A stretch of DNA of 42,613 nt from an uncultured Candidatus Saccharibacteria bacterium (GTDB lineage: Bacteria > Patescibacteriota > Saccharimonadia > Saccharimonadales > Saccharimonadaceae), in assembly GCA_937859515.1 (NCBI GenBank), contig CALMAK010000023.1, positions 1-42,613 on the forward strand. The letters run 5' to 3'. Below the pieces are notes generated by a model that made no database searches, was not told the DNA's origin, and was given only the letters and a program-made list of their open reading frames with translations. The position numbers were made by a program, and so were the translations under genes. Below, piece by piece: positions 9,442-41,414 of this stretch (its first letter is position 1; the number at the start of each line of letters is the position of its first letter).

Positions 9442-10353
9442 TCAGTCTGTGTGAAACTTTTCGTATGCTTCGCGCAGATGTTGATCAGTGACGTGCGTAT
9501 AGACCTGGGTCGTAGCAATGCTGCTATGGCCCAGCATGCTTTGCACACTGCGGATATCGGCACCGTTCATCAATAGATCAGTTGCAAAACTGTGGCGCAT
9601 TGTGTGAGGGCTGACATGTTTTGTAATACCCGCAAGACGGGCATATTTGCTTATCATCCGTTGAATACTGCGCGCACTGAGGCGACGATAGTCACCGGTT
9701 GTCGAGGCAATATTGTTGGTGCTGTAGCTAAGAAAGAGGGGCGGGAGGTTATCGAGGCGTGCAGACAGGTACTCATCAACATGGGTTGCTGCAGATTGGC
9801 TGACAAAGACAGGTCGGTCTTTCTGGCCCTTACCTCGAACCATGAATTCGCGACGTTTTGTGTTGATGTGGTCGCGGTTGAGGTTGACGAGCTCAGAAAC
9901 ACGAAGGCCACTTGAGAAGAGTAATTCAACGATTGCACGATCACGGAGGCCAGTCTCAGTTGAACAATCTATTTGTTCGATAAGTCGAGTAATTTCGTCA
10001 TAATGAAGGAACGTAACTTGCTTGCGGCTGACCTTTGGAAGGATAATTTTTTCAGGACTAAGAGACGAAATATCACGATTAGAAAGGTATCGCAAGAAAC
10101 CGCGTAGTGCCACGAGATGATAGTTTTGCGTGATAAGAGCAAGCTCTTCGCCTTGGTCGTTTATGTGGCGGTTCAGCCATATACGGTACTTACGAATTTG
10201 TTCTTGTGTAATTTTTTCGACAGGGATGTTACCGAGAAACTCTACGAGACGTTCGAGATATCGTTTGTAATTTTCGGCAGTCTTAGCCGAGCGACCACCT
10301 TCGATTTCGAGGTGTTCAACATAGTCAAGTATCATGTCGGACAAATCATGCAT
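9442..10353 (-). CDS. Tyrosine recombinase, XerC/XerD family
   Basis: An N-terminal SAM-like core-binding domain (about 1-90) and a catalytic domain with the full active site: R in SSGLRVSEL, K in RGKGQKDR, HTMRH (His and Arg), H in LGHSSIATTQ and the nucleophile Tyr in QVYTHVT. The family resolves chromosome dimers at dif or integrates elements. The size (about 300 residues) and simple layout favour a Xer protein over a phage integrase, but C versus D cannot be told. The start at 10353 (MHDLSDMI) is chosen because the -10 box at 10360-10365 ends 6 bases upstream; longer starts overlap the promoter. Confidence 0.92.
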   Translation of the reverse strand: MHDLSDMILDYVEHLEIEGGRSAKTAENYKRYLERLVEFLGNIPVEKITQEQIRKYRIWLNRHINDQGEELALITQNYHLVALRGFLRYLSNRDISSLSPEKIILPKVSRKQVTFLHYDEITRLIEQIDCSTETGLRDRAIVELLFSSGLRVSELVNLNRDHINTKRREFMVRGKGQKDRPVFVSQSAATHVDEYLSARLDNLPPLFLSYSTNNIASTTGDYRRLSARSIQRMISKYARLAGITKHVSPHTMRHSFATDLLMNGADIRSVQSMLGHSSIATTQVYTHVTDQHLREAYEKFHTD

Positions 10354-13276: not shown

Positions 13277-13491
13277 CGACCGGATTATCGCTTCGTTTCA
13301 CTTCGCTCCTCCGCTTGTTTGAAAAGAAAATAGCCTTCGGCTGTTTTCTTTTCTACACTGCGCTACGCGACCCGGCGATCTTAGGGCCAGCTAAAGCTGT
13401 CCCAGATCGCCGGTCCGAATCCTGCCAAAGGTATGCCATAGAAAATACCCACCAATTGGTGGGTACTTTCTATGGCGCGCTCGACCGGATT
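13277..13491 (-). repeat. tRNA-Asp-linked hairpin element (copy A)
   Basis: CGACCGGATT occurs inside tRNA-Asp (13482-13491) and again at 13277-13286, 205 bp away. At the distal copy the next 10 tRNA bases (CCGGCGATCT, 13372-13381) continue only after an 85-bp block (13287-13371). The tRNA 3' part is thus duplicated and split in the T-loop. The block has an A-rich hairpin (GAAAAGAAAA...TTTTCTTTTC) and resembles the block at 41321-41400. A second hairpin (CCGGCGATC/GATCGCCGG, 13372-13413) and an 18-bp terminator-like stem complete the unit. The whole has no ORF and resembles a tiny non-autonomous element at a tRNA 3' end. Confidence 0.6.
13436..13475 (-). terminator. Terminator hairpin downstream of tRNA-Asp
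   Basis: CCATAGAAAATACCCACC and GGTGGGTACTTTCTATGG form an 18-bp stem with an AATT loop and one mismatch. The stem begins at the tRNA CCA end, and the minus-strand 3' side holds a short T-run. Confidence 0.7.
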
Positions 13492-13548
13492 TGAACCGGC
13501 GATCTCCTCCGTGACAGGGAGGCGTGATAACCCCTTCACTACGAGCGC
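13473..13548 (-). tRNA. tRNA-Asp(GUC)
   Basis: On the minus strand GCGCTCG pairs with CGAGCGC. The anticodon stem-loop CTCC-CTGTCAC-GGAG region gives anticodon GTC, the T-arm is GCCGG-TTCAAAT-CCGGT, the discriminator is G and CCA is encoded (13473-13475). Confidence 0.95.
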
Positions 13549-41144: not shown

Positions 41145-41221
41145 GGGCGCTTAGCTCAGTTGGCTAGAGCACTTCGTTTACACCGAAGGGGTCGGGGGTT
41201 CGAGCCCCTCAGCGCCCACCA
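41145..41221 (+). tRNA. tRNA-Val(UAC)
   Basis: GGGCGCT pairs with AGCGCCC. The anticodon loop TTTACAC gives TAC, the T-arm is GGGGG-TTCGAGC-CCCTC, and CCA is encoded. The 3' end is duplicated at 41401-41414. Confidence 0.96.
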
Positions 41222-41414
41222 AAAGTAAAAATCCATCTTTCGAGATGGATTTTTACTTTTGTATGGAGCGCTTTGGAACTCGAACCCCCGCTTTTGCAAA
41301 ACAAAAGTACGCAGGGTTCGGTGTAGCGAGTGAAATAAAGAAAAGCAGCGAAGCTATTTTTCTTTATAAGCGAGCGGAAGAGCGAAACGAAGTGAAGCGA
41401 CCCCTCAGCGCCCA
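41205..41414 (+). repeat. tRNA-Val-linked hairpin element (copy B)
   Basis: CCCCTCAGCGCCCA in tRNA-Val (41205-41218) recurs exactly at 41401-41414, 196 bp later. Just before the second copy, GGGTTCG (41314-41320) continues the T-arm, but an 80-bp block (41321-41400) splits it where the tRNA has only AG. Between them: the terminator stem, TATGG....CTTTGG, and a hairpin GCTTTTG/CAAAAG with outer arms CGAACCC/GGGTTCG. The 80-bp block contains AAAGAAAA...TTTTTCTTT and ends AGCGAAACGAAGTGAAGCGA, clearly related to the block of copy A. Confidence 0.65.
41221..41260 (+). terminator. Terminator after the tRNA-Ala/Ile/Val cluster
   Basis: AAAAGTAAAAATCCATCT-ttcg-AGATGGATTTTTACTTTT is an 18-bp perfect stem with a TTCG loop, starting at the CCA end. 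Confidence 0.85.

Follow-up and report, generated by a model that had tools for sequence, protein, structure and literature searches.

The 80-bp block that splits a copy of the T-arm downstream of certain tRNA genes in Saccharibacteria is, we conclude with moderate confidence, a non-autonomous miniature mobile DNA element inserting at tRNA T-loops. The family to which the block belongs is real and widespread and, to our searches, apparently undescribed: no description of the element was found in open-access full text. Two of its loci, at tRNA-Val and tRNA-Asp, lie in the window, that is, the whole stretch of 42,613 nucleotides that was analysed.

The Val element locus occupies positions 41145-41414 of the plus strand. 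It opens with an intact tRNA-Val(TAC) at 41145-41221, found by ARAGORN and matching Rfam family RF00005 with 66.5 bits, and continues with a perfect, A/T-tailed hairpin at 41222-41260. This hairpin, right after the CCA, looks like an ordinary intrinsic terminator, and comparable hairpins follow most tRNAs of the genome, with or without an insert. Next comes an antisense copy of the Val T-arm region (41264-41291), which is the 5' arm of a hairpin, P2; the 3' arm of P2 is a copy of the T-arm 5' half (CGCAGGGTTCG, 41310-41320), as seen in the sequence and in the MFE fold. The class A insert at 41321-41400 consists of GTGTAGCGAGTGAA, the A/T-rich hairpin P3, GCGGAAGAG, P4 and GCGA; it is delimited by alignment with the Asp locus, by covariation and by a covariance model, R2, which matches 41313-41406 with 90.2 bits. 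At 41401-41414 the locus is closed by a copy of the 3' part of tRNA-Val, comprising the acceptor strand and the 3' half of the T-arm. An earlier note on this DNA had described this copy as an exact 14-base repeat and the T-loop as split by the block, and both descriptions are correct: CCCCTCAGCGCCCA is present at 41205-41218, inside tRNA-Val, and again at 41401-41414, 196 bp apart, and the downstream copy reads GGGTTCG (to 41320), then the 80-bp block, then the second CCCCTCAGCGCCCA.

The Asp element locus, 13277-13548 on the minus strand, has the same parts: a predicted tRNA-Asp(GTC) at 13473-13548, a terminator-like hairpin 3' of it (13437-13472), an antisense copy of the T-arm (AGGATTCGGACCGGCGATCT, 13400-13425), a copy of the T-arm 5' half (AAGATCGCCGGGTCG, 13368-13382), the class A insert (13287-13367, by alignment with Val and an R2 match at 13282-13375 with 67.3 bits) and a copy of the tRNA-Asp 3' part (AATCCGGTCG, 13277-13286). 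The order that had been claimed for both loci, i.e. tRNA, perfect hairpin, TATGG..CTTTGG, inverted T-arm-like hairpin and split T-arm, is thus indeed shared. The two blocks, which had been said to be similar, align end to end from GTAGCG to GAAGCGA with a local score of 67, against a maximum of 33 among 2000 dinucleotide shuffles. No Rfam family matches over the insert, the families in the window being only tRNA, rRNA, RNase P and tmRNA, and rtT gives no match in the window at the gathering threshold.

The window's own genome (G000, 907 kb in 34 contigs) contains five copies, as found by sequence search, by reading of the tRNA flanks and with the covariance model: at the Val, Asp, Ser-GCT and Arg-GCG tRNAs and at a decayed Gln. 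The last of these, on contig C15, was recognised with the model and adjoins a decayed Gln-like tRNA end. Further, there is a partial copy at Pro-TGG and a remnant at Ser-TGA. Relatives of the same family carry the element at Gln, Arg, Asn, Met, Tyr, Lys and Ser tRNAs. The covariance-model search for the same element type elsewhere revealed a large family across the order (Saccharibacteria): of the 392 genomes sampled from it, R2 detects the insert in 103, up to 11 times per genome. In the genomes sampled outside the order no insert was found with R2; in a phylum-wide sample 5 of 286 genomes are positive, all five of the same family. A pattern scan of named records leads to Candidatus Saccharibacteria/Saccharimonadia, and strong model matches are located in such records or in bacterial MAGs. 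There is no insert match in the phage and plasmid collections, and none of four short pattern matches in viral contigs is confirmed by the covariance model.

The position of the element is narrowly defined. Among 89 inspected copies, 76 are found 60-103 nt 3' of a tRNA (counting as downstream those less than 130 nt away on the same strand), and these represent 22 isoacceptors. The remaining 13 are second tandem copies, lie at contig ends or adjoin a decayed tRNA of which CCA and terminator are left; one of them is inverted (L084). The common order is tRNA, terminator, antisense T-arm, T-arm 5' half, insert, and T-arm 3' half with acceptor. A direct repeat of the tRNA 3' end flanks the element and the crossover lies in the T-loop, as looked for in a tRNA island.

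The ends of the element depend on the tRNA beside which it is found. The right flank shares with the 3' end of its own tRNA an exact block of 11 nt (median), compared with a mean of 4.7 nt for tRNAs of other amino acids, none of which reaches 11. The right-hand (T3') copy matches tRNA positions 59-66 (0.87-0.99), the left-hand (T5') copy positions 51-57 and the antisense segment positions 48-56. In the 76 loci the antisense segment agrees with its own tRNA at 12.5 of 17 positions, with other tRNAs at 9.9 and with a control stretch at 8.2 of 17. The wider pattern is not chance, since 56 of 243 tRNAs (a set enriched in loci fetched for holding the insert) have their own 3' part copied downstream, exactly and over at least 11 nt; when the 3' part of a tRNA for another amino acid is looked for instead, the figure is 11 of 7754. 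A shared core with locus-specific tRNA ends, as proposed in the earlier note, is therefore strongly supported by the model matches, by the match of the flanks to their own tRNA and by the likeness of inserts within a genome.

The same note suggested that the tRNA end is copied or acquired at each insertion. This is one possible reading, but the right-hand end looks like the original 3' half of the tRNA, displaced by the insertion. It can carry CCA, and in genomes G340 and G001 it is followed by a full second terminator. At the Pro tRNA of G340 this terminator resembles the tRNA-proximal terminator of G248, and the one next to the tRNA in G340 is similar to the second one in G141. Since the two terminators of a locus are not alike in G340 and G141, we reject a simple target-site duplication. 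Integration of a circle carrying its own tRNA end is rejected as well, as near-identical inserts at different tRNAs would need hybrid tRNAs. Such inserts are found at Arg-GCG and Ser-GGA in G069, nearly the same with different tRNA ends, and at Ser-GCT and Gln-TTG in G266, where they are close copies.

In general, inserts resemble others of their genome: the nearest neighbour is in the same genome for 21% of the inserts (3.8% by chance) and at the same tRNA for 13% (5.5%). Inserts are also stacked. At the Pro tRNA of G141 an intact tRNA and terminator are followed by an insert of a second type, class B, then by a tRNA 3' end with CCA and terminator, and then by a class A insert. The class B sequence (TGAGAACTGCC...GTGACCG) is seen repeatedly, at tRNAs that include those for Ser, Pro and Ile. 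In G141 (L121, 500-700) a class B insert splits a 5' half of tRNA-Pro in the D-loop and is followed by a new leader and an intact tRNA, a mirror-image case.

Two inserts, at Val-GAC in G001 and at Ser-GCT in G372 (the copy L084), are inverted. At both loci T54 is the last position of the left copy and C56 the first of the right one, which mirrors the forward arrangement of TTCG, insert and position 59; such symmetric junctions are expected with insertion in the palindrome TTCGAA. In the cases examined by eye the insert's own top strand lies directly 3' of TTCG, and tRNAs with TTCA have altered junctions. The site, the local ends, the stacking, the inversion, the occurrence at several tRNAs of one genome and the decay described below are all directly visible in the loci. 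From them we infer transposition of the element. It would insert at the T-loop palindrome TTCGAA of a tRNA gene, in either orientation; the interrupted old 3' half, initially with CCA and terminator, would be pushed downstream, an intact tRNA with terminator would stand upstream, and later rounds would stack new copies beside the tRNA.

The element also decays. The sister genome G001, of the same genus, keeps the element at Arg-GCG; at its Asp, Ser-GCT and Gly tRNAs there are remnants left by deletions. No clean pair of an empty and an occupied site turned up: each locus of G001 is either conserved or decayed, and G131 was discarded as an empty-site reference, its flanks being too diverged and its Pro locus holding an antisense remnant. 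A hammerhead-like sequence is present in G266 (L101, 866-920; Rfam Hammerhead_3, 32 bits, below the gathering score); an insert with a decayed tRNA lies about 200 nt downstream of it.

The persistence of the Arg-GCG elements in G000 and G001, together with the covariation of the stems, counts against the mobile reading and could reflect a kept function. The main rival is a conserved regulatory or non-coding RNA of tRNA operons (a second terminator, a decoy or an antisense partner of the T-arm) that is under selection, and whose ends match because pairing needs it. The structure behind R2 was set by hand on an alignment of 14 inserts; RNAalifold had found no pairs on the alignment of a first model, which the hand-structured one replaced. 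In the 14 inserts 79% of the cells are paired, compared with 67% after shuffling, and 11 of 16 pairs show changes on both sides, compared with 6.0, a signal that is lost when the strands are slid. These stems speak for an RNA, as do the fixed spacing and the mostly single orientation, but the outer stem P1 has no specific pairing. In P3 there are 52 G.T and 20 A.C mismatches, much as in tRNA terminators (42 and 8), which hints at structure at the RNA level, but the count is inflated since the G.T excess comes mostly from a few recurring hairpin motifs. When T5' copy and tRNA disagree, the better fit to the tRNA is usually that of the antisense strand (41 of 50 cases, against 1), in a rough ungapped comparison that indels in the copy can bias. 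Together with the hint from P3, this fit may point to a retained RNA role. Against selection for a conserved RNA stand the many genomes that lack the element, which are the majority, its decay by deletion in G001, its survival beside decayed tRNAs, the inverted and stacked copies, and the other insert classes at the same place. We regard a conserved RNA as an unlikely explanation.

The antisense T-arm looks like a fold-back copy located 3' of the terminator, and TGG stands opposite CCA in 56 of 76 loci. Such a copy, following a terminator palindrome, is what template switching during replication, or gene conversion, at tRNA and terminator palindromes might leave while spreading the insert among T-arm copies, and the hairpin arms of the orthologous Arg-GCG copies do differ strongly between G000 and G001. 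Alone, this process yields neither one fixed T-loop breakpoint at 22 isoacceptors nor symmetric inverted insertions, and we consider it quite improbable. From the usual insertion of REP or IS605 elements, or by an integrase, one would expect neither the antisense T-arm nor the rebuilt tRNA, which counts against the mobile reading. As an extension of the mobile-element reading we raise, tentatively and as a minor prospect, that T-loop insertion is coupled to the re-creation of an intact tRNA 3' end and a fresh terminator, through fold-back copying with the antisense T-arm as its trace.

A mobile element of this kind would depend on an enzyme acting in trans. The most likely mobilisers are a RAYT/IS200-like Y1 transposase, which would act on hairpin-rich single strands, or a large serine recombinase acting at TTCGAA, whose palindromic CG centre would make both orientations possible; both are candidates. 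Y1 transposases are present in 7 of 10 carriers and in none of 8 non-carriers. When seven genomes with only IS200-type or fragment matches are set aside, a RAYT-like Y1 protein (about 200-260 aa, with an HxH motif) and the element occur together in 41 of the 392 genomes, the element alone in 62, Y1 alone in 34 and neither in 255 (odds ratio 5, Fisher p=4e-9, uncorrected for phylogeny). No Y1 gene was found flanked by a class A insert: ten Y1 loci have unrelated palindromes of their own, and the three R2 matches within them are either next to a tRNA or far from the gene. Nor was any case found of class A inserts flanking a gene of any kind, and Y1 is absent from G000. At tRNA-Ile of G390 (L248, 1970-2700) the T-arm copy that follows a class B insert is the site of a Y1 gene with GGGGACGGTTCCCC palindromes.

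Large serine recombinases are found in all 10 element-bearing genomes inspected and in 5 of 8 element-free ones, and in 12 of 20 inspected loci their ORF overlaps a tRNA gene. In these (L280, L281, L282, L284, L288-L290, L292, L295-L297 and L299) the 3' end of the ORF runs into a convergent tRNA, and in G000 two such ORFs run into Lys-TTT and Leu-CAG. Further, G141 and G300 have island-like T3' copies at a distance of 5-9 kb, with a match that begins in the T-loop, and a serine recombinase is used at the tmRNA T-loop by the Dehalococcoides ssrA islands (PMC3146451). The elements might be scars or mini-versions of serine-recombinase tRNA islands, the insert being an attachment-site arm beside the displaced tRNA end. 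The far ends of the islands seen lack a class A insert, the insert alone is inverted in the inverted cases, and the recombinases are also present without the element; we judge island scars unlikely. A tyrosine integrase was rejected as mobiliser, as carriers and non-carriers alike have about one Xer-like gene per genome. In G000 the sole PF00589 (Xer-like) recombinase is encoded at 9478-10011 of the window (minus strand), upstream of tRNA-Arg(CCT). In G141 (L287, 8800-9000), immediately 5' of a tRNA T-arm and 3' end, inspection by eye showed a stretch that looks like the 3' part of a group I intron.

The genomes of Saccharibacteria are tiny and most of their tRNAs are single-copy, yet the element can be present at as many as about one quarter of the tRNA genes. 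If it is mobile, REP/MITE-like elements extend to a universal target, the T-loop; the insert would be a mini-substrate for a recombinase working on any tRNA, and many repeats of split tRNA ends in candidate-phylum genomes would be explained. The rebuilt tRNA raises the testable question of repair-coupled insertion, and if the fold-back coupling is true, nearly every single-copy tRNA of a minimal genome is open to an element without genes.

Several known systems resemble the element in part. The E. coli tyrT/rtT repeats are 178-bp tandem units that each start with the 3' end of tRNA-Tyr, and tandem copies of a tRNA 3' end downstream of the tRNA are found here too. We know of no split T-arm in them, and they are confined to one locus, whereas the Saccharibacteria family is found at many tRNAs. 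The MITE-like palindromic RPEs of Rickettsia are likewise non-autonomous, short and structured repeats of a small genome; the elements differ from them in having the tRNA T-loop as target and locus-specific ends. The TTCG rule in both orientations and the hairpins recall miniature elements of the IS200/IS605 type, which insert immediately 3' of a fixed tetranucleotide, have subterminal hairpins and make no target duplication; here junctions are altered at tRNAs with TTCA, and tRNA sequence is duplicated.

Two systems come closer. REPs are palindromes of 20-40 bp, tagged at one end with GTAG (or CGTC) and associated with IS200/IS605-like Y1 transposases (PMC3733652). The elements are likewise small, non-coding, intergenic hairpin repeats of patchy distribution, with RAYT-like genes in many carriers, and about half of the 14 model sequences have GTAG near the left end of the insert, the others having GCAG, GGAG or GAAG and none having it at the very end. 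They differ in that the Y1 genes are not flanked by the insert, in the antisense T-arm and rebuilt tRNA, and in the splitting of the T-loop, which that paper does not describe for REPs. In the Dehalococcoides ssrA islands a serine recombinase is used at the tmRNA T-loop, direct repeats stand in tandem and a motif of 15 bp lies beside the repeat (PMC3146451); the elements share the T-loop site, the direct repeat of the RNA 3' end, the tandem stacking and a motif adjoining the repeat. Unlike in these islands, only about 200 bp separate the repeats, with no genes or integrase inside, 22 tRNA isoacceptors are used, and the block is also inverted alone. The element shares traits with both REP/RAYT systems and T-loop islands, and departs from each of them in a defining one.
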